Shown here in pieces: positions 465 through 44,509 of a stretch of 64,000 nucleotides of DNA (positions within the stretch are counted from its first letter, which is position 1; each line of letters starts with the position of its first letter). Origin of the DNA: a virus; the IMG/VR virus record IMGVR_UViG_3300032287_004484, positions 1 through 64,000 of that record; one strand, 5' to 3'. A program made the translations under genes and the position numbers. The notes beneath the pieces are model-generated. The model had not been told where the DNA came from, searched no databases, and saw nothing but the letters and a program-made list of their open reading frames with translations.

Positions 465-474
465 TTAGATGAGT

Positions 475-2181: not shown

Positions 2182-2183
2182 TT

Positions 2184-2250: not shown

Positions 2251-2256
2251 GTGGAT

Positions 2257-5305: not shown

Positions 5306-5327
5306 ATAAAATATTGGAGTTTTTAAT

Positions 5328-6442: not shown

Positions 6443-6493
6443 ATTGGATTTCTAATAGAAAAACAATCACTTAATAAAATTAAAGGATATCAC

Positions 6494-8303: not shown

Positions 8304-8304
8304 G

Positions 8305-8625
8305 ATGGCAACTATGAACTCTATTCAAATTTATCTTATCATTCTCTTATATGATAATAACACTATATCCAGTTTACATGTAATAGATAACAATAAAAAG
8401 ATTAAATATTTTGGAACTATTAAAATTAAAGATCAATATAAATATAACATGAATAATTTCTACTTAAAAAAGACAGTTGAATATATACCTAATAATCATC
8501 TCTTTGTGAGACTTCAAAATCAAATAATCGTCAATAAAATCTTAAATCTTAATTGGCAAGAAATCAGTGGTAAGAATATATCTGAAATAATTACAATCCT
8601 AGGAATAGAGGAGGAACTAATATGA
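8305..8625 (+). CDS. Family C small protein
   Basis: 106 aa from ATG 8305, or 103 aa from ATG 8314. The previous gene's junction ATG (8300) now opens only MRWQL before a TGA overlapping ATG 8314, so 8314 may be the coupled start. YLIILLYDNNTISSL, IKYFGTIKIKDQ, C-terminal LGIEEELI. Confidence 0.72.
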   Translation: MATMNSIQIYLIILLYDNNTISSLHVIDNNKKIKYFGTIKIKDQYKYNMNNFYLKKTVEYIPNNHLFVRLQNQIIVNKILNLNWQEISGKNISEIITILGIEEELI

Positions 8626-8921
8626 AAAAATATATTTACTTTGGTCTTAATGATAGAGATCAAATCAATTGCATCGTATTAGTAGATTTAGATAAAGAAA
8701 TTAAATATTGTGGAAACAATATTATTGGTGACTATCATCTTCGATTACTAGAAAGTTCACCGCAACCTATCCACGACTTTTTTAGTAACAAACATATCTA
8801 TATCTATATATACGATAATGATATCTTTAACGAGATGCTATCTATCAATTTTCAATCTATTAGAAGTAAACAATATCGAGAAGTTTTAGAACTTCTACAA
8901 CTACAGGAGCAACTACTATGA
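8622..8921 (+). CDS. Family C small protein
   Basis: 99 aa, ATGA-coupled with GGAGGAA just upstream. YIYFGLNDRDQINCIVL, IKYCGNNIIGDY, C-terminal REVLELLQLQEQLL. Confidence 0.78.
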   Translation: MKKYIYFGLNDRDQINCIVLVDLDKEIKYCGNNIIGDYHLRLLESSPQPIHDFFSNKHIYIYIYDNDIFNEMLSINFQSIRSKQYREVLELLQLQEQLL

Positions 8922-9214
8922 ATACATATCTCTGTATTGATATTAATAAAAATGACACTATAGTATCTTTTACGATATTAGATAAAAAAAAATGTATCGT
9001 GTATTGTGGTGATCAAATTATTGGTAAAAGTATTCTACCACACAATGGATCTATTGCACGTCCAGTTAGCATGTTCGCTACTGAAAGTATAATTATACCA
9101 ATCTCTGATCAGAATCAAATTGATCATCTATTGAACATGAATTTTAATTCTATTAAAAACAAAAAATATCAAGAAATCTTATACGAACTAAATCTTCAGG
9201 AATATATCATATGA
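8918..9214 (+). CDS. Family C small protein
   Basis: 98 aa, ATGA-coupled. YLCIDINKNDTIVSFTILD, IVYCGDQIIGKS, NMNFNSIKNKKYQEIL, tail NLQEYII. Close to the family consensus. Confidence 0.78.
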   Translation: MNTYLCIDINKNDTIVSFTILDKKKCIVYCGDQIIGKSILPHNGSIARPVSMFATESIIIPISDQNQIDHLLNMNFNSIKNKKYQEILYELNLQEYII

Positions 9215-9504
9215 ACTATCATCTCACCTTTGGACTAGATTCAAAAAATATCGTTATATCATGTACAGTAATGAACGAAGATAAAAACATCGAATATTGC
9301 GGTGATCTTTTTATTGGTGATCGTATCGAGTCTCATCCAGAAACTATGCTATCTAAACATCTCTTCGTCTATAAAAATCGTCACGTTCCCATCCCTTCCC
9401 TAGAACACGTACAAAAAATCTTACACACTAATCTAACGACTGTAATCAATAAGCACATCAACGAAGTCTTAATGAACATGAAACTAGAAGAATATATCAT
9501 TTAA
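9211..9504 (+). CDS. Family C small protein, end of array
   Basis: 97 aa, ATGA-coupled. YHLTFGLDSKNIVISCTVM, IEYCGDLFIGDR, tail KLEEYII then TAA. The terminator at 9505 follows directly. Confidence 0.78.
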   Translation: MNYHLTFGLDSKNIVISCTVMNEDKNIEYCGDLFIGDRIESHPETMLSKHLFVYKNRHVPIPSLEHVQKILHTNLTTVINKHINEVLMNMKLEEYII

Positions 9505-22790: not shown

Positions 22791-23204
22791 TTACTTCTTT
22801 TTCCCTACTACTTGAAGAGCCTTGATAATATCCACACTCTTAGCAATTACGTTATCGATGCCAAGAGGGATTTCTGAATGAAGTGTTTCCATTGCTGCTG
22901 CTATGATTGCTTCTTCTTTTGATGCATACTCTTTATCACCTACTTTGAAAACCTTTGATATAGAAATTGCAACTGGAGCAACTTTTACTGTTGGAGTAAC
23001 TTGTGAAGATGCTTCAACCGTGTATTTCATGGTTTCAACTGGAGGTTCTATAGTTGCTAATGCCATTTCGATAGGGTTAATGGATTCTTCTGCTGTTCCA
23101 AATAATTTGTCTTTGATAGATGTAATTGTCATGTTCTCGTCTCCATGAGAGTTATTTATTTGAAAAGTAGTAAAAGTGTTTTTGAATATTTTTTCTCTTT
23201 TCAT
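22791..23204 (-). CDS. KVGD-domain cassette protein with MKRK leader
   Basis: 137 aa from the leader ATG (MKREKIFKNTF), or 113 aa from the SD-preceded ATG at 23132 (GGAGACGAGAACATG). A unique middle (residues 25-80, Pro/Val-rich) precedes the KVGD domain: SKVFKVGDKEYASKEEAI, GIDNVIAKSVDIIKALQVVG. The KVGD domain is nearly identical to those at 24281 and 27280. Function unknown. Confidence 0.75.
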   Translation of the reverse strand: MKREKIFKNTFTTFQINNSHGDENMTITSIKDKLFGTAEESINPIEMALATIEPPVETMKYTVEASSQVTPTVKVAPVAISISKVFKVGDKEYASKEEAIIAAAMETLHSEIPLGIDNVIAKSVDIIKALQVVGKKK

Positions 23205-23317
23205 ATTAATAGAATACTACTTTTTTACAGAGAATAAAAAACCTAAAAAAATAGTTATAGTAATATATAGAATTTTTGGGTTTTTTTAAAATACTCAAAA
23301 AAGTATATTCTACTATT
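23205..23317. promoter_or_regulatory. Bidirectional cassette promoter
   Basis: AAAAACCTAAAAA (23236-23248, leftward box) and TTTTTGGGTTTTT (23273-23285, rightward box) form an inverted pair. TATATTCTACTATT ends immediately before the rightward ATGAAAAG, so that ATG sits at about the expected +1. Confidence 0.6.
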
Positions 23318-23794
23318 ATGAAAAGAAAAATTCTACTACTAGAAAAAACTTCTACTATATTGAATTTTACTTTTCAAATAAAAAAAGTCATGGAGACTAA
23401 AATGAACATTACAGCAACTAAATCTTACAAAGTAGGGAATCTTGAATTCACCTCTCTCGAAGCAGCAAACGCACACGTGGCTAAAATTGAAGTTGAAGCT
23501 CACTTAAACGAAGGTGTAGATCACATCATCGAAAACAGCGAAGCATTCATAAAAAGCCTCAAAGTACTAGCAGGCATCAAGTACACTAACGTAGGCAAAG
23601 GGAACTTGAAAGACATCAACGAACACCTTGAAAAAAGCGGTTCCTCGGTGGTTAGATCTTCAGTTGATTGGCCAGTCTATACCATCAATACTCCTTCTGA
23701 ATCTTTCGTAATAAGGTTCGTAGGCAAAGTATGGGAACTACACTCCCTGATCGTAGAACAAGGATTGGATTCTCTCAAGCAGTACAAGAAGTAA
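23318..23794 (+). CDS. Two-domain KVGD/WPVY cassette protein
   Basis: 158 aa from the leader MKRKILLLEK, or 130 aa from ATG 23402 (GGAGACTAAAATG). KVGD domain (TKSYKVGNLEFTSLEAANAH ... VDHIIENSEAFIKSLKVLAG), then WPVY domain (GKGNLKDINEHLEKSGSSVV, DWPVYTINTPSESFVIRF, GKVWELHSLI). About 80% identical to the genes at 25800 and 27657. Its GC content is visibly higher than that of its neighbours. Function unknown. Confidence 0.8.
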   Translation: MKRKILLLEKTSTILNFTFQIKKVMETKMNITATKSYKVGNLEFTSLEAANAHVAKIEVEAHLNEGVDHIIENSEAFIKSLKVLAGIKYTNVGKGNLKDINEHLEKSGSSVVRSSVDWPVYTINTPSESFVIRFVGKVWELHSLIVEQGLDSLKQYKK

Positions 23795-23803
23795 ATCACG
23801 AAA

Positions 23804-23834
23804 GAGTGGCTCCGCAAGGAGTCACTTTTTTTTA
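23804..23834 (+). terminator. GCAA-tetraloop terminator
   Basis: GTGGCTCC-GCAA-GGAGTCAC then T8. Same hairpin after the paralogues at 26279 and 28133. Confidence 0.85.
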
Positions 23835-23888
23835 TGTTTTTTTTTATTTTTTAAATGTCAAATCCCAAAAACTAAGCGGACATAAAAA

Positions 23889-23925
23889 AAAAAGAGAGAG
23901 AGATCTTTCGATCCCTCTCTTTGCT
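23889..23925 (-). terminator. Tetraloop terminator
   Basis: AGAGAGAGATCTTTCGATCCCTCTCT hairpin downstream of the leftward gene at 23929, flanked by an A-tract that is read as T on the reverse strand. Confidence 0.75.
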
Positions 23926-23928
23926 GTT

Positions 23929-24186
23929 TTACTTTTTGAGAATTGCTAGTGCTCTTCTCACTTCGTCTGCGTTGTCTAAGAGAGCCTGTACTTCTTGATC
24001 TCTACTTACGTGCTTCTTCAGAATCCCAACCGCAGTTGCTCTGATTGCTTCTTCTTTAGAAGAGAATTCCTTTCCATCCACTGTGTAAACTTTAGTTACT
24101 GATATATTCATTTTGTAGTCTCCATGACTTGTTTTTATTTGAGAAGTAAAGAGAGAGTTTTTTAGTATTCTTTCTTTTCTTTTCAT
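23929..24186 (-). CDS. KVGD-only cassette protein with MKRK leader
   Basis: 85 aa long form (MKRKERILKNSLFTSQIK), 60 aa from ATG 24111 after GGAGAC. Single KVGD-like domain: ISVTKVYTVDGKEFSSKEEA, HVSRDQEVQALLDNADEV. Sister of 26434. Own leftward box at 24218-24232. Function unknown. Confidence 0.75.
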   Translation of the reverse strand: MKRKERILKNSLFTSQIKTSHGDYKMNISVTKVYTVDGKEFSSKEEAIRATAVGILKKHVSRDQEVQALLDNADEVRRALAILKK

Positions 24187-24247
24187 ATTAATAGAATACT
24201 ATTTTTCAATAGAAAAGAAAAAACCCAAAAAATTTTATAGAAATAAA

Positions 24248-24280
24248 AAAAAGGGAGATCTTTCGATCTCCCCTTTTGTC
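24248..24280 (-). terminator. Tetraloop terminator
   Basis: AAGGGAGATCTTTCGATCTCCCCTTTT hairpin after the leftward gene at 24281. Confidence 0.75.
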
Positions 24281-24547
24281 TTACTTCTTCCCTACTACTT
24301 GAAGAGCCTTTATAATCTCTGCACTCTTGGCGATCACATTGTCGATGCCGAGTGGGATTTCTGAGTGAAGAATATCCATTGCTGCTGCTTTGATTGCTTC
24401 TTCTTTAGAAGAATACTCTTTGTCACCGACTTTAAATACTTTAGTTGTTGTTATTTGCATGTTCGTCTCCACGATTTTAGTTTTATTTGAGAAGTAAAGA
24501 ACTTTACTTTGAGAAGTATTCTCTAGTAGTATTCTTTTTCTTTTCAT
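24281..24547 (-). CDS. KVGD-only cassette protein with MKRK leader
   Basis: 88 aa long form (MKRKRILLENTSQSKVLYFS), 59 aa from ATG 24460. KVFKVGDKEYSSKEEAIKAA and GIDNVIAKSAEIIKALQVVG. Nearly identical to 27280 and to the end of 22791. Confidence 0.75.
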   Translation of the reverse strand: MKRKRILLENTSQSKVLYFSNKTKIVETNMQITTTKVFKVGDKEYSSKEEAIKAAAMDILHSEIPLGIDNVIAKSAEIIKALQVVGKK

Positions 24548-24577
24548 ATTAATAGAATACTATTTATTGAAATAAAA

Positions 24578-24668
24578 TAAAAAACCTAAAAAATTCTTAA
24601 ATAAAAAATTAGTACAATTTAGTTTTTGGGTTTTTGCATTAAATTAAAAAAGAAATATTATATTAATA
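24578..24668. promoter_or_regulatory. Bidirectional cassette promoter
   Basis: Leftward AAAAACCTAAAAA (24580-24592) and rightward TTTTTGGGTTTTT (24623-24635) boxes. TATTATATTAATATG follows on the right. Confidence 0.6.
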
Positions 24669-24736
24669 TGAAAATAAAAGATTTTCATATTGAATTTTAT
24701 TTAACACAAAAAGGAGATTTAATCAATGAAAAATAA
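24668..24736 (+). CDS. Leader ORF overlapping the next gene
   Basis: ATG at the leaderless position opens MKIKDFHIEFYLTQKGDLIN, which runs through the SD and ends in TAA just inside the 24726 gene. It parallels the MKRK leaders at 25628 and 31761. May act in translational coupling. Confidence 0.4.
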   Translation: MKIKDFHIEFYLTQKGDLINEK

Positions 24737-25100
24737 AAACATTGCTAGAAGATTAGTAAAATACCTTGAAACAAATGTACTTACTTTTAAGGGTGTTCAA
24801 GAAAAGATGTATACTCTTTCTAGAGGTATCAAAAAGAAAGATTTAAAAAAGGGAGAAGTTTCAAGAGGATATAGTTGTAACTCTATTAATCTTTTAGTGA
24901 ACTCTGGATCTATTAAGTATCACGAAGACTTTGGATATTATTCAACACCTGGAACTTCTGAAAACAAATACCTCTACAATTCACAACACATATCTTGGCA
25001 CCGAACAGTGGAAGATAAGAAACCACTAGATGTTATTCTTCATCCAAAGATTAAGAAGATCGTTGAGACTACTAATAAGGACATGGAGATATACATCTAG
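24726..25100 (+). CDS. Hypothetical protein, 124 aa
   Basis: SD AAGGAG (24711-24716). Lys-rich N-terminus and a fold suggestive of a winged helix (GYSCNSINLLVNSGSIKYHE, FGYYSTPG). No family recognised. Not homologous to the KVGD cassettes but placed in the same kind of unit. Confidence 0.7.
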   Translation: MKNKNIARRLVKYLETNVLTFKGVQEKMYTLSRGIKKKDLKKGEVSRGYSCNSINLLVNSGSIKYHEDFGYYSTPGTSENKYLYNSQHISWHRTVEDKKPLDVILHPKIKKIVETTNKDMEIYI

Positions 25101-25108
25101 TACTAAGG

Positions 25109-25138
25109 AAATGGAGTATTTTTACTCCATTATTTTAT
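25109..25138 (+). terminator. Terminator
   Basis: AATGGAGTA, TTTT, TACTCCATT then ATTTTAT. After the 24726 gene. Confidence 0.7.
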
Positions 25139-25181
25139 GTTCATTAAATGTCAATACCCAAAAATTAATTAAACATAAAAA

Positions 25182-25204
25182 AAAACGGGTTTAAAACCCG
25201 TTCC
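25182..25204 (-). terminator. Terminator overlapping CDS end
   Basis: AACGGGTTTAAAACCCGTT palindrome with an A8 flank (T8 on the reverse strand). The final codons of the leftward gene lie in the stem. Confidence 0.7.
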
Positions 25205-25631
25205 TAAGTCTAGAACCTAGTGGATATTTTGAATTAAGTCCACTCCTTTCTTCTTGCTCTACATGCTTATGTATTGGAGGTGCTTCTTGTGTTTCACGTT
25301 TATTGCTTTCTATCTCTTGTCTCTTTCTGAGGTGTAAAGTATGGAGTTGGTTGAGGTAACAAATAATTCTTTCTTTACCTCTAACATCTTTTTTCTTCCA
25401 ATACTCGATTTGCTTAGGAGTTAAGAATCCAGTCTTCTTATAGAACTTAACCATTCCACTACCGACCTTAGAATCGAAAGATCTGAACCCCATACCATTT
25501 CTATCAATAGTTCTTCCAGAGGCAACTTCCTCTTCTGTTTGACAACCATTTAACGCTACTAATGCTGCTATTAAAGCTTTGTCATCTGTAAGAAGCTTTT
25601 GCTTTAGTTGTTCTTTAGTTAATTCACTCAT
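25191..25631 (-). CDS. Phage-conserved hypothetical protein, 146 aa
   Basis: LLTDDKALIAALVALNGCQT, then SGRTIDRNGMGFRSFDSKVG, then GFLTPKQIEYWKKKDVRG. This series (residue stretch around NGxGF, DxxxGS, LxxKQ...K) is one I have seen in phage proteins acting near recombination or replication genes, but I cannot name the family. The start is at the stop of the leader ORF (ATGA overlap). Confidence 0.7.
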   Translation of the reverse strand: MSELTKEQLKQKLLTDDKALIAALVALNGCQTEEEVASGRTIDRNGMGFRSFDSKVGSGMVKFYKKTGFLTPKQIEYWKKKDVRGKERIICYLNQLHTLHLRKRQEIESNKRETQEAPPIHKHVEQEERSGLNSKYPLGSRLRNGF

Positions 25632-25687
25632 TTTTTATCTCCACGATTTATTTGAAAAGTATTTTTGAGAATATTTTTTCTTTTCAT
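25628..25687 (-). CDS. MKRK leader peptide
   Basis: Reverse strand MKRKNILKNTFQINRGDKK, then TGA that overlaps the ATG of the 25631 gene. It includes the SD GGAG. One of two loci where the leader is a separate overlapping ORF instead of an in-frame extension. Confidence 0.55.
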   Translation of the reverse strand: MKRKNILKNTFQINRGDKK

Positions 25688-25799
25688 AATAGTAATATAT
25701 AATTTTTCAAGAGAAAAGAAAAAACCTAAAAATTCTATACTACTATATACTAAATTTTTAGGTTTTTTAAATAACTTAGAAAAGTAGTATTGTAGTAGT
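25688..25799. promoter_or_regulatory. Bidirectional cassette promoter
   Basis: Boxes AAAAAACCTAAAAA (25720-25733) and TTTTTAGGTTTTTT (25755-25768). GTAGTATTGTAGTAGT precedes the rightward ATGAAAAG. Confidence 0.6.
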
Positions 25800-26279
25800 A
25801 TGAAAAGAAAAAAAGTATTCTTAGAAAATAAAATTTCTGAAAATAATTCTACTACTTTTCAAATAAAAAAAGTCATGGAGACTAAAATGGAAATCAAAGC
25901 AGCTAAATCATACAAAGTAGGGGACAAAGAATTTTCAACCCTAGAAGCAGCAAACTCGTACGTAGCACAATTCGCAGTAGAGGCAATGCTAAAAGAGGGA
26001 GTTGATTATATCGTAGAAAACAGTGCAGAATTCATCAAGCAACTGAAAATCGTATCTAACATCAAGTATACCAATGTAGGCAAAGGGAACTTGAAAGACA
26101 TCAATGATCACCTAGAAAAGCAGGGTTCATCAGTGGTTAGATCAACAGTTGATTGGCCAGTCTACACCATCAACACTCCTTCTGAATCTTTCGCAATCAG
26201 ATTCGTAGGCAAAGTGTGGGAACTCCACGCGATGATCGTGAACCAAGGGATCGATTCCTTGAAACAGTACAAGAAGTAA
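25800..26279 (+). CDS. Two-domain KVGD/WPVY cassette protein
   Basis: 159 aa long form, 130 aa from ATG 25887. KAAKSYKVGDKEFSTLEAAN, GVDYIVENSAEFIKQLKIVS, GKGNLKDINDHLEKQGSSVV, GKVWELHAMI. Paralogue of 23318 and 27657, with the divergence concentrated in the KVGD half. Confidence 0.8.
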   Translation: MKRKKVFLENKISENNSTTFQIKKVMETKMEIKAAKSYKVGDKEFSTLEAANSYVAQFAVEAMLKEGVDYIVENSAEFIKQLKIVSNIKYTNVGKGNLKDINDHLEKQGSSVVRSTVDWPVYTINTPSESFAIRFVGKVWELHAMIVNQGIDSLKQYKK

Positions 26280-26287
26280 ATCCCAAA

Positions 26288-26319
26288 AGAGTGGCTCCGC
26301 AAGGAGTCACTTTTTTTTT
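26288..26319 (+). terminator. GCAA-tetraloop terminator
   Basis: GTGGCTCC-GCAA-GGAGTCAC then T9. Confidence 0.85.
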
Positions 26320-26397
26320 AAACATTTTTTTTAAAATCCCAAAAATTTTTTTTATTTTTTTTAATTGTCAAATCCAAAAAACTAAGCGGACATAAAA

Positions 26398-26428
26398 AAA
26401 GAGAGAGATCTTTCGATCCCTCTCTTTA
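26398..26428 (-). terminator. Tetraloop terminator
   Basis: GAGAGAGATCTTTCGATCCCTCTCTTT after the leftward gene at 26434. Confidence 0.75.
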
Positions 26429-26433
26429 CTTTT

Positions 26434-26691
26434 TTACTTCTTGAGAATTGCTAGTGCTCTTCTCACTTCATCTGCGTTCTCTACGAGAGCCTTTACTTCT
26501 TGCTCACTACTTACGTGCTTTCTGAGAATCTCGATTGCTGTTTCTCTGAATGCTTCTTCTTTTGTAGAAAACTCTTTTCCACCTACTGTATAAACTTTTG
26601 TTATTGAAATTTCCATAGTATCGTCTCCACGATTTAATTTTATTTGAGAAGTAAAGAGAGAGTTTTTTAGTATTCTTTCTTTTCTTTTCAT
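26434..26691 (-). CDS. KVGD-only cassette protein with MKRK leader
   Basis: 85 aa long form (MKRKERILKNSLFTSQIK), 60 aa from ATG 26616. ISITKVYTVGGKEFSTKEEA, HVSSEQEVKALVENADEV. Close sister of 23929; even the leader is nearly identical, so the whole cassette was duplicated. Confidence 0.75.
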   Translation of the reverse strand: MKRKERILKNSLFTSQIKLNRGDDTMEISITKVYTVGGKEFSTKEEAFRETAIEILRKHVSSEQEVKALVENADEVRRALAILKK

Positions 26692-26756
26692 ATTAATAGA
26701 ATACTATTTTTTAATAGAAAAGAAAAAACCTAAAAATTTTATAGAAATAAAAAAAA

Positions 26757-26778
26757 AAGGGTCTTTCGACCCTTTCCT
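26757..26778 (-). terminator. Tetraloop terminator
   Basis: AAAGGGTC-TTTC-GACCCTTT at the end of the leftward 26781 gene. Confidence 0.75.
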
Positions 26779-26780
26779 TA

Positions 26781-27182
26781 TTAAGAAAGATTTATAAAGG
26801 TTAGGTAGTAGTTTTGATAACCTTTTTCAGTTACTGGACAAAAGTAGAATCCGAATGTTTCAGAAACTGTCTTTCTAGTTAAAGATAAAGTGAACTCGTA
26901 CTGTGATTTCTCGTTAAAGTTAAATTCCATATCAGTGGTTAACTTCAATTCTTGAATTAATCCAATCTTAACCTCAAAAGCAACCTCTTTATTGTGTCTT
27001 AGATAAGCATCAGTTATTGTCATTGGACCATACTCTCCACCTTTCATTCCAAGGAACCCTGTTGACTTTACTTTCTTGAACCCAATCTTTCGAAGAGCCC
27101 TTTGTAGGGATGGTTGTAGTGTTTTCATAGTTTCATCTCCATTTTTTGAAAATTCTAATATATTAGAAGTTTTTCTTTTCAT
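26781..27182 (-). CDS. Cassette protein with MKRK leader, unrelated body
   Basis: 133 aa long form, 115 aa from ATG 27128 (GGAGATGAAACTATG). Begins MKTLQPSLQRALRKIGFKKV, then an antiparallel beta-rich body (VAFEVKIGLIQELKLTTDMEF). Not a KVGD protein; it shows that the leader module is shared by unrelated genes. Confidence 0.72.
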   Translation of the reverse strand: MKRKTSNILEFSKNGDETMKTLQPSLQRALRKIGFKKVKSTGFLGMKGGEYGPMTITDAYLRHNKEVAFEVKIGLIQELKLTTDMEFNFNEKSQYEFTLSLTRKTVSETFGFYFCPVTEKGYQNYYLTFINLS

Positions 27183-27242
27183 AATAATAAATATATAATT
27201 TTTTCTAATATATTAAAAAACCTAAAAATAAAACAGATAATA

Positions 27243-27272
27243 AAAAAGAGAGAGATCTTTTGACCTCTCTCT
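27243..27272 (-). terminator. Tetraloop terminator
   Basis: AGAGAGAGATCTTTTGACCTCTCTCTT after the leftward 27280 gene. Confidence 0.7.
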
Positions 27273-27279
27273 TGTTGTT

Positions 27280-27462
27280 TTACTTCTTCTTCCCTACTAC
27301 TTGAAGAGCCTTGATAATATCCCCACTCTTGGCGATCACGTTGTCGATGCCAAGTGGGATTTCTGTATGAAGAATATCCATTGCGGCTGCTGTGATTGCT
27401 TCTTCTCTAGAGGAGTATTCTTTGTCCCCTACTTTAAATATTTTAGTTGCTTTGATTTCCAT
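27280..27462 (-). CDS. KVGD-only cassette protein
   Basis: 60 aa from ATG 27462 (GGAGACGATACTATG). MEIKATKIFKVGDKEYSSRE and GIDNVIAKSGDIIKALQVVG. The upstream leader ATG (27539) is in a different frame, the only such case, because an indel separates it from the otherwise parallel 24281 cassette. Here only the SD start can give the product. Confidence 0.75.
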   Translation of the reverse strand: MEIKATKIFKVGDKEYSSREEAITAAAMDILHTEIPLGIDNVIAKSGDIIKALQVVGKKK

Positions 27463-27539
27463 AGTATCGTCTCCACGATTTTAGTTTTATTTGAGAAGAA
27501 AAGAGAGAATTTTTTTAATATTCTTTTTTTTCTTTTCAT

Positions 27540-27656
27540 ATTAATAGAATACTATTTATTGAAATAAAATAAAAAACCTAAAAACTAAGAAATAAAATTA
27601 AGTATATATAATTTTTAGGTTTTTGAAATAAGTTAGAAAAGTAGTATTGTAGTAGT
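27540..27656. promoter_or_regulatory. Bidirectional cassette promoter
   Basis: Boxes AAAAAACCTAAAAA (27571-27584) and TTTTTAGGTTTTT (27612-27624). GTAGTATTGTAGTAGT before ATGAAAAG as at 25799. Confidence 0.6.
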
Positions 27657-28133
27657 ATGAAAAGAAAAAATTTACTACTAGAAAAAAATTCTACTAAAAT
27701 AAATTTTACTTTTCAAATAAAAAAAGTCATGGAGACTAAAATGAACATTACAGCAACTAAATCTTACAAAGTTGGAGATAAAGAATTCTCCTCAATTGAA
27801 TCAGCTAACGCATATGTAGCACAATTCGCAATAGAGGCAATGTTAAGTGAAGGTGTGGATCACATTATAGAGAACAGTGAGACATTTATCAAGAACCTAA
27901 AAGCACTGGCTGGGATTAAGTACAGCAACACTGGCAAAGGGAACTTAAAAGACATAAATGATCACCTCGAAAAAAGTGGATCATCAGTAGTAAGATCAAC
28001 AGTTGATTGGCCAGTCTACACCATTAACACTCCTTCTGAATCTTTCGTAATAAGATTCACTGGCAAGGTGTGGGAATTACACTCCCTAATAGTAGAACAA
28101 GGGATCGATTCCTTGAAGCAGTACAAGAAGTAA
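27657..28133 (+). CDS. Two-domain KVGD/WPVY cassette protein
   Basis: 158 aa long form, 130 aa from ATG 27741. TATKSYKVGDKEFSSIESAN, GVDHIIENSETFIKNLKALA, GKGNLKDINDHLEKSGSSVV, GKVWELHSLI. Third near-copy of 23318 and 25800. Confidence 0.8.
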   Translation: MKRKNLLLEKNSTKINFTFQIKKVMETKMNITATKSYKVGDKEFSSIESANAYVAQFAIEAMLSEGVDHIIENSETFIKNLKALAGIKYSNTGKGNLKDINDHLEKSGSSVVRSTVDWPVYTINTPSESFVIRFTGKVWELHSLIVEQGIDSLKQYKK

Positions 28134-28143
28134 AACCCAAAAA

Positions 28144-28174
28144 AGTGGCTCCGCAAGGAGCCACTTTTTTTTTA
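28144..28174 (+). terminator. GCAA-tetraloop terminator
   Basis: GTGGCTCC-GCAA-GGAGCCAC then T9; the G-U pair of the two sister hairpins is here a G-C pair, a compensatory change supporting a real structure. Confidence 0.85.
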
Positions 28175-28223
28175 AACATTTTTTTTAAAAAATAAAATCC
28201 CAAAATTTTTAACATAATAAAAA

Positions 28224-28320
28224 AATAGGGATCTTTCGATCCCCGAGAAGTTTTACTTAGAGAGAATAATTACGATAAAAGAATAATTACGATAAAAGAA
28301 GGGGCTTTTCAACCCCTTAG
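28224..28320 (-). terminator. Two hairpins and short direct repeat
   Basis: AGGGATCTTTCGATCCCC (28227-28244), then a tandem GAATAATTACGATAAAA duplicated (28263-28298), then AAGGGGCTTTTCAACCCCTT (28299-28318) just after the leftward 28324 gene. The first hairpin probably belonged to a lost gene. Confidence 0.6.
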
Positions 28321-28323
28321 TTA

Positions 28324-28665
28324 CTATTCGACCTTAGGCCAAATCTGTGGACAAAAAGCTCCTATGTACCATTCACGATCTGTAGGATCTACGTAATCAG
28401 GTATTTCAAATACGAAATCCTCTTGTAATATCTCTGAGTGACAAATGTACTGTCTTTGTACTTTATCTTCATAGATAATTTTTGGATCGTTCACAAACTT
28501 CTTGATGTCCGCTGGATCTATAATAAAAGAGTCTCCACCTTTCATTTTCCAACGAGGTGAACCATCGCCTTCACCTTCCCAATTATAATTCTCTTGGTAC
28601 TGACAAGTAACTGATAATTTTCCACAAGTACCTTTGAGAATAATTATTTCAGATGTATTAACCAT
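28324..28665 (-). CDS. Hypothetical cassette protein, 113 aa
   Basis: GGAGACAAT SD. Contains GGDSFIIDPADIKKFVNDPK and a C-terminal PTDREWYIGAFCPQIWP. The usual leader ATGAAAAG is here ATAGAAAT, so this cassette has lost the MKRK leader and depends on its SD. Function unknown. Confidence 0.7.
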   Translation of the reverse strand: MVNTSEIIILKGTCGKLSVTCQYQENYNWEGEGDGSPRWKMKGGDSFIIDPADIKKFVNDPKIIYEDKVQRQYICHSEILQEDFVFEIPDYVDPTDREWYIGAFCPQIWPKVE

Positions 28666-28747
28666 ATTGTCTCCATTTTTTTTATTTCTATATTAATAGA
28701 ATACTATTTTTTTAATATAAAATAAAAACCTAAAAATTTTTCATATA

Positions 28748-28776
28748 AATAAAAAGAAACCTCTCCTTTCGAAGAG
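28748..28776 (-). terminator. Terminator
   Basis: AAACCTCTCCTTTCGAAGAGGTTT hairpin; the same sequence recurs at 29256-29279. Confidence 0.75.
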
Positions 28777-28788
28777 GTTTAAAAGTCC

Positions 28789-29187
28789 TTACTCCCATTC
28801 GTTGTTGAGCATGTATCCCCAAGAGAGTGCTATGTTATGGAAGATGTCCCAATCATATTCATCTAGATTAGTAACATCTAGATATTTCATGTTCAAGATT
28901 TCTTCACGATCTTCATACTGTTCAGAGATTATTGGATCTAAACCTCTCTCCTGAAGTTCTATGATTACTTCTGCGATTGTGAGATCATCTATGTTTCCCA
29001 TGTCTTCCCAATTTTGTCGGTGATGAGTTGATACAGTTGCTGTTACAGGGTCGACGTTGTGTTTCTCGAGGTCAAAGAAGTAAGTGTTAGTCGAATTAAG
29101 TGTAATCATGGTGTCTCCAAGTAGAATTTTATTTGAAAAGAGAATTTTACTAGAAATTTTATTTAGTAGTAAATTTTTTCTTTTCAT
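28789..29187 (-). CDS. Acidic cassette protein with MKRK leader
   Basis: 133 aa from the leader ATG, 107 aa from ATG 29109 (GGAGACACCATG). TLNSTNTYFFDLEKHNVDPV, LTIAEVIIELQERGLDPIIS, then an acidic Tyr/Trp-rich end. Homologous to 29798. An upstream open frame extends to 29349 but covers the promoter and is not counted. Function unknown. Confidence 0.72.
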   Translation of the reverse strand: MKRKNLLLNKISSKILFSNKILLGDTMITLNSTNTYFFDLEKHNVDPVTATVSTHHRQNWEDMGNIDDLTIAEVIIELQERGLDPIISEQYEDREEILNMKYLDVTNLDEYDWDIFHNIALSWGYMLNNEWE

Positions 29188-29253
29188 AGTAGTAATATAA
29201 AATTTTTGAGAGAAAAATAAAAAACCCAAAAATTTTTTTGAAATTAAAAAAAA

Positions 29254-29282
29254 GAAACCTCTCCTTTCGAAGAGGTTTCTAC
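29254..29282 (-). terminator. Terminator
   Basis: AAACCTCTCCTTTCGAAGAGGTTT, the same hairpin as at 28750, after the 29289 gene. Confidence 0.75.
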
Positions 29283-29288
29283 TCAAGA

Positions 29289-29698
29289 TTAACGATTTTT
29301 GATAATACTCAAGATTTCGTTCATATCTTCTAGATGGATATTTTTCCAAACCCCACCTTCTTCTCTATATTCTTCATCTTCAATTTCTTCATCAAAGATA
29401 AATTGTCCATCTTTTAAAAGTGCAACTTCAAAAGTCATCTTGTCCCAACTTCCACCCGCTGACCAAGACAAGAACTGTATGATTGATCTGCTCCGCTTCT
29501 TTTCGTGATTATCGAAGCACTGTATCCATTTGCGAATTTTATTACAGCCTTGATGCTATCTTCCCAAGCTGGATGATTTTCAAAAACCACATCCTGTCCA
29601 TTTATATTTAAAGAATAATCTTTAACTTCCATAGTTCTATCTCCAATAGAATTTTTTTGAATTGAAAAATTTTGTAATATAGAATTTTTTCTTTTCAT
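29289..29698 (-). pseudogene. Frameshifted paralogue of the 21177 gene, with MKRK leader
   Basis: The first frame (29698 to about 29500) gives the leader and then FANGYSASIITK; a second frame, -1 relative to it, gives MTFEVALLKDGQFIFDEEIE and GGVWKNIHLEDM down to 29289. Together they align with SAYIITKDGKTFEVSMMKDG and GVWKGLSSDDV of the intact gene at 21177. One shift between about 29440 and 29510 explains it: mutation, sequencing error or programmed shift. No classical slippery heptamer was seen. Confidence 0.65.
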
Positions 29699-29760
29699 AG
29701 TAGTAATATATAATTTTTTGAGAGAAAAGAAAAAACCTAAAAATTTTTGAAATATAAAAA

Positions 29761-29790
29761 AAAGAATCCATCCTTACGAATGGATTCTTG
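29761..29790 (-). terminator. Terminator
   Basis: AGAATCCATCCTTACGAATGGATTCT after the leftward 29798 gene. Confidence 0.75.
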
Positions 29791-29797
29791 ATGTTAT

Positions 29798-30193
29798 TTA
29801 ATCTTCATCTTCTCCAATGTTCTCTAGTCTTAGTTCTATATCTTCTCCAGTGTACAAGATTACGTTCTCAAAGATTTCCCATTCTTCAAATCCATCCACA
29901 TTGGATACTAAGTGTTCGAGTGTACAATTAACGTCGATGTTTTGAGTTTCGATAAGTGATGGTTTAAAACCTTTTGCAGTGATTACTTCAATGATTTCTT
30001 GGATTGTAGAATCCATTGTTAATCCGGTGTCTCTCATCCTTCTTAGTGATTGAGAATCACATGCTACATCATCTGCTGTTAAGTCTTCTGTTTCCAGGAA
30101 GTAAAGATTTTCTTTATTGAGCGTTACCATAGAGGTGTCTCCAAGTATTTTATTTGAATTGAAAATTTTAGTAGAATAATTTTTTCTTTTCAT
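29798..30193 (-). CDS. Acidic cassette protein with MKRK leader
   Basis: 131 aa long form, 110 aa from ATG 30130 (GGAGACACCTCTATG). TLNKENLYFLETEDLTADDV, STIQEIIEVITAKGFKPSLI, DGFEEWEIFENVILYTGEDI. Same family as 28789. Highly acidic; DNA mimicry would be a speculation. Confidence 0.72.
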   Translation of the reverse strand: MKRKNYSTKIFNSNKILGDTSMVTLNKENLYFLETEDLTADDVACDSQSLRRMRDTGLTMDSTIQEIIEVITAKGFKPSLIETQNIDVNCTLEHLVSNVDGFEEWEIFENVILYTGEDIELRLENIGEDED

Positions 30194-30305
30194 AATAGTA
30201 ATATATAATTTTTCTAAATAATAAAAAAAACCTAAAAACTAAGAAATAAATATTATAGAATTTTTAGGTTTTTTTAAATAAATAAAAAAAGAATATTATT
30301 CTACT
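30194..30305. promoter_or_regulatory. Bidirectional cassette promoter
   Basis: Boxes AAAAAAAACCTAAAAA (30224-30239) and TTTTTAGGTTTTTT (30260-30273); GAATATTATTCTACT precedes ATGAAAAG. Confidence 0.6.
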
Positions 30306-30782
30306 ATGAAAAGAAAAAATTTACTACTAAAAAATATTTTAAATTTCTTTTCAAATAAAATACTTGGAGATCAAATGATCACTTATAATATAAAACCTCA
30401 AAACGCTGAAACTCTAGATCAGTATAACAAAGAAACAGCTGCTCAAATCGTAGAACTAATCACTCAATGCGGTGTGGATTATATCGTCGAAAACATGGAA
30501 GAATTAATCGGCAACCTTAGAGTTCTAGTACCAGAACCTCGTAGAACAGGTAAAACACTTGAAGACCTCAATAAACACCTTGAGAGGAACGCTGAAATCA
30601 ATCCATATAGAAAAGGAGAATCAGTACATTCCTTATATGCACCATCGATGTACTTCGTATCCACCAGCAGCGACTTCTTTATCATAAGGTATGTATATGG
30701 GGTCGAAAGTCTTTATAACCTCGTTGTAGAAAGTGACATAGATGTTCTAAGAGGATACGGAATACCTCTAGACACCGAATAA
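30306..30782 (+). CDS. Diverged WPVY-family cassette protein
   Basis: 158 aa long form, 135 aa from ATG 30375 (GGAGATCAAATG). It retains CGVDYIVENMEELIGNLRVL and TLEDLNKHLERNAEINPYRK, then FFIIRYVYGVESLYNLVVES, i.e. the KVGD-end helix and a WPVY-domain version with the core motif changed. Function unknown. Confidence 0.75.
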   Translation: MKRKNLLLKNILNFFSNKILGDQMITYNIKPQNAETLDQYNKETAAQIVELITQCGVDYIVENMEELIGNLRVLVPEPRRTGKTLEDLNKHLERNAEINPYRKGESVHSLYAPSMYFVSTSSDFFIIRYVYGVESLYNLVVESDIDVLRGYGIPLDTE

Positions 30783-30794
30783 TAATCCTAAAAA

Positions 30795-30828
30795 GTAGAA
30801 TCTTTTAGATTCTACTTTTTTTTTATTT
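30795..30828 (+). terminator. Terminator
   Basis: AAGTAGAATC, TTTTA, GATTCTACTT then T run. Confidence 0.8.
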
Positions 30829-30942
30829 TTTTTACAAATCCCAAAAATTTTTATATAAACAAAAAAACCTAAAAAATAAGAAATAAATAATACAAAATTT
30901 TTAGGTTTTTAAAATAAAATAAAAAAGAATTATATTTTTACT

Positions 30943-31218
30943 ATGAAAAGAAAAAAAATAAAATTCAAAAAATTGAATACTGAGAGGTTCTCTAATAAAA
31001 GAGAAACCATAAAAACATTCTTCTTAGAATTCCCTACAAGAAGATTAGCGCTGACTTTTCAGAGAGACATCAGAATTGCACTCTTTAATTCTCTTACCTT
31101 GTATGATTTTAAATCACTAACATTCTCCCGAACTGGTTATAAATCAGCGTATCACTGGACAACTAAGGTCACCTCTAAGAGGTTGGAAATTAAAGTCACT
31201 AGGGTCAAGATAACCTAG
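30943..31218 (+). CDS. Basic cassette protein that requires the MKRK start
   Basis: 91 aa beginning MKRKKIKFKKLNTERFSNKR. It has no internal SD-plus-ATG after the leader (an ATA stands where other cassettes have ATG), so the leader ATG must be the real start. The body is very basic (RLALTFQRDIRIALFNSLTL; KVTSKRLEIKVTRVKIT). Promoter box TTTTTAGGTTTTT at 30898-30910. Possibly nucleic-acid binding. Confidence 0.65.
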   Translation: MKRKKIKFKKLNTERFSNKRETIKTFFLEFPTRRLALTFQRDIRIALFNSLTLYDFKSLTFSRTGYKSAYHWTTKVTSKRLEIKVTRVKIT

Positions 31219-31229
31219 AAGATTAAAAA

Positions 31230-31262
31230 AGTAGAACCTAAAAGATTCTACTTTTTTTTTAT
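31230..31262 (+). terminator. Terminator
   Basis: AAGTAGAACCTAAAAGATTCTACTT then T7. Confidence 0.75.
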
Positions 31263-31298
31263 TTTTTTTACAAATCCCAAAAATTTTGAATGAATTAA

Positions 31299-31331
31299 AA
31301 AAAATAGAATCCGAAGATTCTATTTTTTCAA
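31299..31331 (-). terminator. Terminator
   Basis: AAATAGAATCCGAAGATTCTATTTTTT hairpin after the leftward 31336 gene. Confidence 0.75.
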
Positions 31332-31335
31332 GATT

Positions 31336-31764
31336 TTATTTATTAACTTTATATTTGTCTAAAGTAACTTCAATATTTTCAAGATTTTCTGCAACTAAAT
31401 TATAAAGCTCCCACACTTTTCCAATAAATCTTATCGAAAAAGATCCATTTTCTCCGATACCATCAAAGTGATATACTGGCCAATGGGTAGCATCTCTTTT
31501 TACAGAGTATTTTGTTTTAAGGAGTTCTACAATCCCCGCTAAATCTCCTTTTGCTCCAGGATTAATAACTGATTTCTGTACTGGACTTGATTTTCTTACG
31601 GGCTTAACTTCTTTATATTGAAATAAAGCTTCTGAAAAATCTGTGGGATTCTCTAAGATCCAATCTAATCCATTAGAGTACATGATTTCAATTATATACT
31701 TCTGAGCATCTTTTAGGTTTGTGAAAGTCTTATCACCGACTTTGTAACTGTTTTCTATGTTCAT
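31336..31764 (-). CDS. Two-domain KVGD/WPVY cassette protein
   Basis: 142 aa. MNIENSYKVGDKTFTNLKDA, NGLDWILENPTDFSEALFQY, GAKGDLAGIVELLKTKYSVK, RDATHWPVYHFDGIG, FIGKVWELYNLVAENLENIE. The start is the ATGA overlap with the leader ORF. Function unknown. Confidence 0.78.
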   Translation of the reverse strand: MNIENSYKVGDKTFTNLKDAQKYIIEIMYSNGLDWILENPTDFSEALFQYKEVKPVRKSSPVQKSVINPGAKGDLAGIVELLKTKYSVKRDATHWPVYHFDGIGENGSFSIRFIGKVWELYNLVAENLENIEVTLDKYKVNK

Positions 31765-31817
31765 ATTCTGTTCTCTCTTTTTTTTGTATTTGAAAAGTGT
31801 TTATTTTTTCTTTTCAT
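31761..31817 (-). CDS. MKRK leader peptide
   Basis: MKRKNKHFSNTKKRENRI then TGA overlapping the start of the 31764 gene. A separate-leader arrangement as at 25628. Confidence 0.55.
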   Translation of the reverse strand: MKRKNKHFSNTKKRENRI

Positions 31818-31933
31818 ACTGATAATATATAACATTTAGATACAAAAGAAAAAACCTAAAATATAGTTAAAAAATTCAAATAGTAAAATTTTCAGGTTTT
31901 TTCTATTACTTAAAAAAATTATATATTAGTAGT
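31818..31933. promoter_or_regulatory. Bidirectional cassette promoter
   Basis: Leftward AAAAAACCTAAAA (31849-31861) and rightward TTTTCAGGTTTTTT (31888-31901) boxes; ATATATTAGTAGT before ATGAAAAG. Confidence 0.55.
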
Positions 31934-32461
31934 ATGAAAAGAGAAAATTTAGAAATAAAAAAAGAAAATAAAATTTCTGAAAATTTCTTTTCAAATAAAA
32001 ATAATAGAGAGAATACTATGAATATTCAAATTACTTACAAAATCGGCGATAAAGAATTTTCTACAATCGAAGAATCCCAAAAATATTTATTACAAGAAAT
32101 ATATAATCGCGGATTAGAATATATTTGTGAAAACCCAAAAGAATTTTTAGATATTTTTAATTCTGTAACTAAAAAGAATTTTGTAAATCCCGAAAAAAGA
32201 GAATACTCAAATATTTCTCAACCCAATATGAAAAGTATTCAAAATTTAGTAAAATCCCAATTCTCTATTACTAGAAATATTCAAGAATGGCCTGTATATA
32301 AATTTCAGTCTATTCAAAATCCCGAAAATTTCTTCGTAATTAGAAATACAAAAAAAATATTTGAATTATTTTACGAAATACAAGAAAATTTAGAAAATCT
32401 TGAAAATTTCTTCTCTAAATATTCTTACAAAGAAAAAATAAATATTTGGAAAGAAGTATAA
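31934..32461 (+). CDS. Two-domain KVGD/WPVY cassette protein
   Basis: 175 aa long form (MKRENLEIKKENKISENFFS), 147 aa from ATG 32018. QITYKIGDKEFSTIEESQKY, LEYICENPKEFLDIF, NLVKSQFSITRNIQEWPVYK, FVIRNTKKIFELFYEIQENL. It is AT-richer than its paralogues, with the conserved GKV changed to TKK, so it is an old and drifting copy. Confidence 0.75.
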   Translation: MKRENLEIKKENKISENFFSNKNNRENTMNIQITYKIGDKEFSTIEESQKYLLQEIYNRGLEYICENPKEFLDIFNSVTKKNFVNPEKREYSNISQPNMKSIQNLVKSQFSITRNIQEWPVYKFQSIQNPENFFVIRNTKKIFELFYEIQENLENLENFFSKYSYKEKINIWKEV

Positions 32462-32503: not shown

Positions 32504-32590
32504 GTTTTTTTAAAAATCCCAAAAATTAAAAACACTAAATTAATAAAATCTAATATAATAAAAAACCTAAAAACTATATAAAAAATATAG

Positions 32591-32650
32591 GCAAAATATA
32601 CCAGTAGGCTGGGCTCATTTTTCGGCTATATTAGACCCAAGCGTATTTTT
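32591..32650 (+). repeat. 60-bp repeat, copy 1
   Basis: Core ATATACCAGTAGGCTGGG, then a Py-rich/A-rich joint, GGCTATATTAGACC, AAGCGTATTTTT and a downstream TGATTCTA. CCAG-TAGG-CTGG and GGCT-ATATT-AG-A-CC can each form a small hairpin. Confidence 0.85.
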
Positions 32651-32698
32651 GAATGATTCTAAAATTCATAAGGAACGATAATCCTAAAAAAAATATAT

Positions 32699-32759
32699 GC
32701 AAAATATACCAGTAGGCTGGGACTAAAAATAGGCTATATTAGACCTAAGCGTATTTTTT
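32699..32759 (+). repeat. 60-bp repeat, copy 2
   Basis: ATATACCAGTAGGCTGGG, ATAGGCTATATTAGACCTA, AGCGTATTTTTT, TGATTCTA. The second hairpin is extended to TAGGCT/AG.CCTA. Confidence 0.85.
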
Positions 32760-32841
32760 CATGATTCTAAACTATAAACTGATTTCACTACTATAAACTA
32801 ATTATAAACTGATTCTAATTTTTTAATCTTATTCTATACTA

Positions 32842-32899
32842 CGAAATATACCAGTAGGCTGGGACTAAAAATAGGCTATATTAGACCCAAGCATATTTT
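32842..32899 (+). repeat. 60-bp repeat, copy 3
   Basis: Same core, with AAGCATATTTTC at the end; preceded by ATTCTATACTAC. Confidence 0.85.
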
Positions 32900-32992
32900 C
32901 TCAGGATTTTAAAACTATAAACGATTCTACTATTTTAATGATTCTAAAACTATAAACGATTCTACTACTACAAATTATTATAAAAAATATAG

Positions 32993-33052
32993 GCAAAATA
33001 TACCAGTAGGCTGGGCTCAAAATTCGGCTATATCTAACCCAAGCGTATTTTT
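32993..33052 (+). repeat. 60-bp repeat, copy 4
   Basis: Core identical; the second element is GGCTATATCTAACC, where both sides changed relative to copies 1-3 and partial pairing is kept. Confidence 0.85.
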
Positions 33053-33122
33053 CGGGGATTTACAAATGGTAATCATTTTAATTTATTCTATATTATGGAG
33101 TGATTCCAAGAAAAAAATATAT

Positions 33123-33183
33123 AGGAAATATACCAGTAGGCTGGGACTAAAAATAGGCTATATCTAACCGGAGCACGTTTTTT
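33123..33183 (+). repeat. 60-bp repeat, copy 5
   Basis: Core identical; GGCTATATCTAACCGG and AGCACGTTTTTT. Confidence 0.85.
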
Positions 33184-33262
33184 GGTGATTTCAAAATCTA
33201 AACTGATTCTATGGAGTCTTTTTTTTGGTTTTTTTATTCTATTCTATACTATCTATTTATAT

Positions 33263-33322
33263 GCAAAATATACCAGTAGGCTGGGCTTAAAAATAGGCTA
33301 TATCTAATCGATGCGTATTTTT
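33263..33322 (+). repeat. 60-bp repeat, copy 6
   Basis: Core identical; GGCTATATCTAATCGATGC and GTATTTTT. About 130 bp upstream of the next gene. Confidence 0.85.
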
Positions 33323-33389
33323 GAGTGATTTAGTGATTTAAACTGATTCTATGGAGTCTATTTTTTCTGTTTTCTATTCTAGTTGGATA

Positions 33390-42859: not shown

Positions 42860-44509
42860 ATGGAAAATAAAAATAGTTCAAGGCCATTTCTTTCTCTCCA
42901 TTGTCACTCTAACGTTGGATCAGTAAGAGATTGTACTGCATCGATAGATGAGATGGCAAAAATTTGTTCTAAAAATAATATGTCCTTTTCTTTAACTGAT
43001 CATGGTTGGGGAGCAGGTATTGTTCAATATTATCGAAGTGCTAAAAAACATAAAATAAAACCAGTTTATGGGGTTGAATTTTATCTTTCTTTACAAAGAG
43101 AAAGATTATTTGAAATTAGAAAAAAACTTGAAGAACTCAAAGAATTAACTGGTTTGTCTAAAGATGAAAAAAAGAATGTAGATGAAGAAATCAGAAATCT
43201 TAATTATGAATTTGAAGAAATTAAAAGATATAATCATCTCATAGTTTTAGCCAAGAATGAACACGGTTTAAGAAATCTTTTACAATTACATAACATAGGA
43301 TCTTTATCTGGATTTTATTTTAAGCCTTTAATAACTCTTAAAGAATTATTTAGTGTTCCAAAAGATAAAAATGGAGATAGAGGTTTAATAGTTACAAGTT
43401 CTTGTTTAAGCGGAGTTATACCCAAAGATTATTTAAATGGAAAAGATAATTTTGCTTATGATCATGCAAATATTATGAAAGAAGAACTTAGAGATGATTG
43501 GTATTTAGAAATTCAACCACACGAATTAGAAGAACAAAGATTTGTAAATAAAAAATTAATTGATCTTTCTAAAAAAAGTAATATTCAATTAGTTATGGGT
43601 ACTGATTCTCATTATCTTAATAATGATTATTCTAAGAGCCATGAAATTTTTCTTCTTCTTCAAGGTGAACAAAAAGTAGAAGATATAGGTAAAAAGATTT
43701 GGAGAATTACTTATGAAACTTCTAAAGGTGAAACTCGAAGAAAAAAACTTGATAAAGGCGAAGAATTTAATGGAGTTAAATTAGAAGATATTAAAGAAAA
43801 TCTTAGAATATCTAAAAAAATTGGAGTTGTGAATGAAGAAGATAAATGGGATTTTTGGATTAAAAAAATTGAAGAAACTAATAAAGTTTGGATGATTGAA
43901 AGTGCAGATCTTTCTTTTAAAAATCAAAGAGAATTAGTAGTACACGCTTTTCAGTTTCCAGAATTAAGACCAGTGATAGATGAAGCAATTGAAAATAATA
44001 AAAATATTTTAGAAAAAATAGAAGAATGGGAATGGGATAACGATCTTAAATTACCAATATATGATAATAGTAATGAAAGACTTTTTGATATTTGTTTAGA
44101 TGGACTTAAAAAATTAAATTTAGATAAAGATAAAATATATACGGAACGCTTTAAAAAAGAATTTTTAGCTATTAAAAATGGCGGATTAAGTTCTTATATT
44201 TTATTATTAAAAGAAATTATTGATTTTGCAAAAAACGAAGATATACCAGTTGGTCCTGGTAGAGGTAGTGCTGGTGCGAGTCTTATTTTTTATATTCTTG
44301 GTCTAACAAGAGTTGATCCAGTAGAGTGGAATTTTCCATTTGAAAGATTTATTAACGATAAGAAGAGCGCTAATGATGCTGAAAGAATAAGACTTAATTT
44401 AGATGATGGAAGAATTTTAGATTTAAAACCAAAAGATATGATTAAATTAAAAAATGGATCACAGAAATTAGTTAAAGATATTACAGAAGAAGACGATTTA
44501 GATATTTAA
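42860..44509 (+). CDS. dnaE: DNA polymerase III alpha, N-terminal piece (split)
   Basis: 549 aa. PHP domain with LHCHSN, SLTDHGWGAG, KPVYGVEFYLS, and later YLEIQPHELEEQRFVNKKLI and GTDSHYLNND. Then the start of the polymerase palm, GPGRGSAGASLIFYILGLTR and FPFERFINDKK. The family continues straight into the catalytic PDIDIDF; here that motif is absent and the protein instead ends with about 47 residues, including LDDGRILDLKPKDMIKLKNG and TEEDDLDI, resembling the later half of an N-intein (Hint) domain. The catalytic Asp pair is encoded in the gene at 48373. Probably leaderless (TATATAATTAGAT before ATGG). Confidence 0.85.
   Translation: MENKNSSRPFLSLHCHSNVGSVRDCTASIDEMAKICSKNNMSFSLTDHGWGAGIVQYYRSAKKHKIKPVYGVEFYLSLQRERLFEIRKKLEELKELTGLSKDEKKNVDEEIRNLNYEFEEIKRYNHLIVLAKNEHGLRNLLQLHNIGSLSGFYFKPLITLKELFSVPKDKNGDRGLIVTSSCLSGVIPKDYLNGKDNFAYDHANIMKEELRDDWYLEIQPHELEEQRFVNKKLIDLSKKSNIQLVMGTDSHYLNNDYSKSHEIFLLLQGEQKVEDIGKKIWRITYETSKGETRRKKLDKGEEFNGVKLEDIKENLRISKKIGVVNEEDKWDFWIKKIEETNKVWMIESADLSFKNQRELVVHAFQFPELRPVIDEAIENNKNILEKIEEWEWDNDLKLPIYDNSNERLFDICLDGLKKLNLDKDKIYTERFKKEFLAIKNGGLSSYILLLKEIIDFAKNEDIPVGPGRGSAGASLIFYILGLTRVDPVEWNFPFERFINDKKSANDAERIRLNLDDGRILDLKPKDMIKLKNGSQKLVKDITEEDDLDI

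Follow-up and report, generated by a model that had tools for sequence, protein, structure and literature searches.

A shared leader with a predicted 5'-terminal hairpin and an open reading frame in a gene array of a jumbo phage

Why would a phage place nearly the same short leader, beginning with ATG, in front of one small gene after another, and what keeps that leader open to translation up to the start of each gene? The question is raised by the virus record IMGVR_UViG_3300032287_004484, of which the window analyzed here comprises bases 1-64000 out of 290,274. Between positions 22791 and 32461 lies an array of cassettes, in which a leader is followed, in nearly all cases, by a Shine-Dalgarno (SD) sequence, a second ATG and a gene body. 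An original prediction, made from the DNA letters, proposed that the leader adds a basic MKRK tag and that each gene yields a long and a short product. In the present work, we examine the promoter, the predicted RNA structure and the reading frame of these leaders. We will argue that the leader is probably a 5'-terminal hairpin which protects the mRNA and favors the SD start, and that leaky leaderless initiation is what keeps its frame open.

The common leader is present ahead of the 17 cassettes as described, with 15 exact copies of ATGAAAAGAAAA within 23.3-31.8 kb and two copies of ATGAAAAGAGAA (23204- and 31934+, the sign giving the strand). Allowing at most one mismatch, ATGAAAAGAAAA occurs 27 times in the window, compared to 6.9 +/- 2.7 in shuffled sequences, and just two exact copies lie outside the array in the remainder of the record. 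We found an 18th leader at 24668..24725 on the plus strand (ATGAAAATAAAA, encoding MKIK), which is out of frame and has an 11-nucleotide (nt) overlap with its body, 24726-25100. The earlier count of 14 in-frame leaders out of 17 thus becomes 14/18 once this one is added. Two leaders end by an ATGA overlap with the body (25687- and 31817-) and one, 27539-, is out of frame with body 27280-27462, all as previously reported. The same is true of the cassette at 30943..31218 (+), where there is no second ATG or any other start, and the gene has to begin at the leader ATG. The segment TTTTCAAATAAA, on the other hand, had been listed for every cassette. It is not uniform, in that four copies have TTCTCAAATAAA, those of 27182-, 29698- and 30193- deviate, and 30943 is without the segment.

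Contrary to the description of the cassettes as otherwise unrelated, an N-terminal KVGDKEFSS domain is common to eleven of the bodies. At least 11 bodies are paralogous, and bodies 28792 and 29801 also appear to be so when judged by eye. With eleven bodies sharing one domain, the leaders cannot be counted as 17 independent cases. They fall into about 12 clusters at 80% identity and 7 at 70%, and significance figures are given below for these 12 or 7 clusters. The 17 leaders that have an internal start, as referred to below, are the 18 leaders minus 30943, and 13 of them are in frame. The commonest body family has a predicted fold of moderate confidence (predicted local distance difference test, pLDDT, 79; predicted template modeling score, pTM, 0.48), for which no significant structural match was obtained.

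Each cassette is predicted to be a single-gene transcription unit with its own promoter and terminator. Terminator-like sites number 23 in the array region versus 3.7 expected, an example read from the sequence being GTGGCTCCGCAAGGAGTCACTTTTTTTT at 26290..26320 (+). In the promoters, TATNNT is located exactly at -12 to -7 relative to the leader ATG in 17/18 cases, with a one-base shift in 27182. An upstream block, TTTTNGGTTTTT, starts at about -44, with TTTTNGG at -44 to -38 and GG at -39/-38 in 17/18. At 25755..25799 (+), for example, a TTTTTAGGTTTTTT block (-45) is followed by TATTGT at -12 to -7, with the A of the leader ATG at +1. The spacing is of the sigma-70 type, and since the position of TATNNT is fixed, the first transcribed base should be the A of the leader ATG.

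A second promoter, AGGTTTATACATCTA-N13-TATAAT, is found throughout the phage and has a geometry identical to that of the cassette promoter. It also occurs in two relatives, where two of its three instances precede an SD-led gene. In the phage itself, about ten promoters of this second type likewise have an ATG no more than 3 nt from the predicted +1, and six of those ATGs begin open reading frames (ORFs) of 98-402 codons that have no SD sequence. Leaderless genes hence appear to be normal for this phage. In record coordinates, the apparently leaderless genes are 193347+, 268380+, 252297-, 151904-, 250900- and 146376-, with a longer spacer in 151904. At 243196+ and 256360+ of the record, the +1 ATG opens an ORF of 18-22 codons that seems to extend into the next gene, which may be an array-like layout elsewhere in the record. 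The gene at window positions 51664-52431 carries a sigma-70 region 2 domain and encodes a candidate recognizer of the AGGTTTATACATCTA or AGGTTTTTT promoters.

The conserved segments of the leader are complementary to each other. UGAAAAG (nt 2-8) and CUUUUCA form the arms of a predicted 5'-terminal stem-loop in 17 leaders, with pairing that starts at nt 2 in most of them and leaves about one unpaired 5' nucleotide. In the predicted message, an A-rich unpaired stretch comes next, and then GGAGA and the body AUG. Wherever a leader has an internal start, the SD sequence is located 3' of the hairpin, outside the stem-loop. Each of these 17 leaders has a predicted folding energy lower than the average of its dinucleotide shuffles (mean z -2.56, Stouffer -10.6). 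When the arms are fixed and the interior is shuffled, the inner helices, whose sequences differ between lineages, still beat the shuffles (Stouffer -6.9). Both Stouffer scores count paralogues as independent and are for that reason too high. In the 24668 leader (z -1.0), a two-sided compensatory change is seen, where AUGAAAAU pairs with AUUUUCAU. Another small hairpin, around the SD sequence (GTC-ATGGA-GAC, ATCGT-GGAG-ACGAT), was rejected, as it is just slightly commoner than in control genes (P 0.02 with at least 4 pairs, 0.09 with 3).

The pairing bears directly on the accessibility of the leader AUG. The mean unpaired probability of nt 2-8 is 0.22 in the 17 internal-start leaders versus 0.99 in 30943, the sole cassette with a leader and no internal start, in which both the hairpin and the 3' arm are absent. 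In the six apparently leaderless genes (at least 98 amino acids (aa) and without SD), the value is 0.58-0.95. With the exception of 30943, the leaders are thus not predicted to have the unstructured 5' AUG that characterizes leaderless mRNA. As far as one cassette and six genes can show, the 5' AUG is predicted to be concealed where a second start exists and exposed where it is required.

We now consider the reading frame. In the frame of the leader ATG, there is no stop before the body in any of the 17 leaders; in the two remaining frames, stops interrupt most of them. Compared to shuffled sequences, the probabilities of the 17 leaders multiply to about 2e-9. When the RNA structure is preserved, P is 1.9e-6 for the 12 clusters and 1.1e-3 for the 7. 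An upstream ORF or an attenuator leader peptide would terminate ahead of the body gene, which none of the leader ORFs does. The leader is both open and in frame in 13/17 cases, compared to 20/117 (17%) for the control set, which consists of 117 phage genes that start from an SD sequence and have free DNA upstream. The difference has a P of 1e-7 if all leaders are independent, 2e-5 for 12 clusters and 2e-3 for 7, and the in-frame excess over chance that had been suggested is thereby borne out. Indels between paralogues are often of 1, 2, 4 or 5 nt, and their totals are nevertheless multiples of three; the exact indels depend on the alignment. Among the in-frame leaders, six have the 3' arm in phase 1, six in phase 2 and one in phase 0, and the remaining distance always compensates (permutation P 5e-4 for 17 leaders, 7e-3 for 12 cluster representatives). 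Composition, RNA structure and the rate in control genes do not account for the open in-frame leader.

The encoded peptide behaves differently from the frame. Substitutions in the leader are mostly non-synonymous and the peptide drifts, and the same shared DNA segment is translated as FQI in some leaders and as FSN in others. Such a pattern would be expected from selection for an uninterrupted, productive frame and not from selection for a tag.

On this basis, we consider the following scenario to be the probable one. In each cassette, RNA polymerase would begin with the A of the leader ATG, and UGAAAAG at the 5' end would pair with CUUUUCA about 10-50 nt downstream to give the stem-loop. The hairpin would most likely shield the 5' end from decay and conceal the leader AUG, such that ribosomes start mainly at the SD site. 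The short, SD-started form should be the main product, since the leader AUG is predicted to be masked in most cassettes. A fraction of the ribosomes would nevertheless initiate at the 5' AUG, given a weak, A+T-rich hairpin and a phage that seems to use leaderless mRNAs. Selection would then exclude stops from the leader and, in the majority of cassettes, preserve its frame with the body, and a minor N-terminally extended product without fixed sequence would result. The promoter geometry, the hairpin and the open frame are the parts that sequence statistics support; 5' protection, masking of the AUG and leaky initiation are inferred, and the second, extended product is plausible. As for the two products per gene that had been proposed, the leader ATG at the predicted +1 and the open frame speak for them, while the stem-loop would hide the AUG in most cassettes.

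It should be stressed that several observations weigh against this scenario. The transcription start is a prediction from the geometry of the -10 box. The leaders are kin by descent, and the independent tests number perhaps 7 to 12. Covariation in the outer arms is thin, with one compensatory case and arms that are otherwise near-invariant, and four copies have an A-C mismatch in the outer stem. Three leaders, 29698, 30193 and 24668, have weak hairpins. No consensus structure emerged when RNAalifold was applied to a MAFFT alignment, probably due to the unequal loop lengths, and minimum free energies and shuffles were used in its place for this reason. Among the cassettes, 30943 is the one informative case for relating masking to start usage. 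Finally, cassette 28690- (28324..28665, minus strand; TATTAATATAGAAATAAAAAAAATGGAGACAATATG) has the shared promoter with ATATAGAAA in place of the ATG; it lacks both the leader and the hairpin and is a natural control, from which the two are seen to be dispensable.

The strongest competitor, which we regard as unlikely but deserving of serious attention, is that the leader is purely a 5' untranslated region, i.e. a promoter and a stabilizing hairpin, with an incidental AUG and open frames inherited by common descent. Nucleotide pairing in the hairpin would suffice to explain both conserved segments, and the drift of the peptides and the missing ATG of 28690 fit well with this option. Furthermore, where an AUG lies at +1 elsewhere in this phage without being the start of a gene, its frame closes after 1-22 codons. 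What it leaves unexplained is that many leaders have diverged to 50-75% identity with frame-breaking indels and yet show no stop before the body, and that the in-frame fraction so far exceeds the 17% of the controls.

Somewhat less likely still is a regulated dual start, in which initiation at the leaderless AUG and at the SD site would both be functional and the hairpin would act as a switch. When closed, it would give a stable mRNA and the SD-led short protein, and when open, the leaderless long protein, with the frame being kept and the peptide not. The open frame and the net lengths in multiples of three speak for this model, the leader AUG is obligatory in 30943, and the same phage has apparently leaderless genes. 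Set against this are the unconserved leader peptides with the TTTTCAAATAAA segment in two frames, the 4/18 cassettes that are out of frame, two of them in the main body family, and the predicted masking of the 5' AUG in most cassettes.

Two further options can be regarded as very improbable. The complementary arms between about +2 and +60 could form an inverted repeat in the DNA, an operator to which a repressor binds just downstream of the promoters. The spacing of the arms is however variable, about 5-47 nt, and inner helices of unlike sequence also fold above chance, which points to RNA. A localization or binding tag, marginally the least probable of all and not supported as a function, would account for MKRK or MKRE in every in-frame leader, but these codons coincide with the predicted transcription start and with the stem's 5' arm, 24668 alters them jointly with the pairing arm, and no residues past position 4 are conserved.

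The separate elements of the preferred scenario have counterparts elsewhere. Stabilization of mRNA by 5'-terminal stem-loops is established in E. coli (ompA, papA) and B. subtilis (aprE), as cited in PMC3997798, and RppH of B. subtilis requires at least two unpaired 5' nucleotides (PMC3997798). The phage leaders resemble these stabilizers in having a stem-loop at the extreme predicted 5' end, about one unpaired nucleotide and an accessible SD sequence downstream. They differ in that the stem holds an AUG as the predicted transcript bases 1-3, in that the leader is an ORF, and in that the element is repeated before 17 genes of one cluster; the stabilization is here putative. Leaderless starts go together with unstructured RNA in Caulobacter (PMC4117421). 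The phage likewise has an AUG at the predicted +1 with no upstream SD, and six more of its genes fit the same description, but in the array the 5' AUG is paired and is followed by a second, SD-led start. Two in-frame ORFs with a common stop codon are also a feature of the two-polypeptide phage endolysins (PMC9430671). Those are single endolysin genes, in contrast to the short, unconserved, hairpin-bearing leader common to many genes. 

The early promoters of the AR9 vRNAP, from the phiKZ-related jumbo phages (PMC5312081), similarly have an A+T-rich conserved block near the transcript start. In the present case, the -10 geometry is of the sigma-70 type, the phage has the sigma-like gene at 51664, and no match to the RNA polymerase (RNAP) beta or beta' subunits (PF00562, PF00623) was found in the 290-kb record, although such a search could miss diverged subunits, or genes lacking from a fragmentary record. 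A phiKZ-type transcription, prompted by TATATTAC, was dropped since no RNAP genes were found.

Stabilizing 5'-terminal hairpins and leaderless AUGs are thus known separately, and here one sequence seems to be both, in front of 17 genes. The arrangement is real and unusual, as judged by sequence prediction in one genome. The array also contains its own natural controls, namely one cassette without a leader (28690), one that depends on it (30943) and four that are out of frame. With these existing variants, it could be tested how 70S leaderless initiation and 30S SD initiation compete on a single transcript. For annotation, they call for caution, as the first in-frame ATG in such arrays should not be called as the start.

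The individual leaders with their hairpin z-scores are as follows. On the plus strand, the in-frame leaders are 23318..23401 (84 nt, z -4.1; body 23402-23794), 25800..25886 (87 nt, z -2.5; body 25887-26279), 27657..27740 (84 nt, z -3.8; body 27741-28133), 30306..30374 (69 nt, z -2.6; body 30375-30782) and 31934..32017 (84 nt, z -4.4; body 32018-32461). On the minus strand, they are 23133..23204 (72 nt open, z -2.0; cassette 22791-23132), 24112..24186 (75 nt, z -1.8; body 23929-24111), 24461..24547 (87 nt, z -2.9; body 24281-24460), 26617..26691 (75 nt, z -2.3; body 26434-26616), 27129..27182 (54 nt, z -1.9; body 26781-27128), 29110..29187 (78 nt, z -3.9; body 28789-29109), 29633..29698 (66 nt, z -0.2; body 29435-29632) and 30131..30193 (63 nt, z -0.9; body 29798-30130). 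The leaders with ATGA overlap are 25632..25687 (-; 56 nt, z -1.7; body 25191-25631) and 31765..31817 (-; 53 nt, z -4.4; body 31336-31764), and the out-of-frame leader of body 27280-27462 is 27463..27539 (-; 77 nt, z -3.3).

The window encodes portal, terminase and sheath proteins of T4 type in addition to the sigma-like factor, and it belongs to a jumbo phage with only distant kinship to named phages. Its close relatives in IMG/VR are two fragments, L015 and L016, with portal proteins that are 73% and 69% identical, respectively, and the array promoter is absent from both. No relative bearing the array was found with the body proteins and their alignment among viral contigs, with a single body protein among genome contigs, or among phage records, nor with neighboring genes as queries. 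Two DNA-pattern searches gave four matches (L013, L014, L021 and L022), which were dismissed as chance.

Rfam gave zero matches across the window. Immediately past the array, at 32577-33381, there is an 89-nt direct repeat (AAATATACCAGTAGGCTGGG...AGGCTATAT...) in six copies with a spacing of 108-152 nt. It has no Rfam match, and four copies folded individually showed no significant RNA structure. At the beginning of the window (1-9500), dozens of short ORFs of 60-135 aa are found in tandem on the same strand, most of them overlapping. The DNA polymerase III alpha subunit is divided over two ORFs, 42860-44509 and 48373-50415, which are separated by ~3.9 kb with other genes between them. The first contains the PHP domain and the start of the NTPase domain, and the second the rest of the NTPase domain, the finger and HHH.

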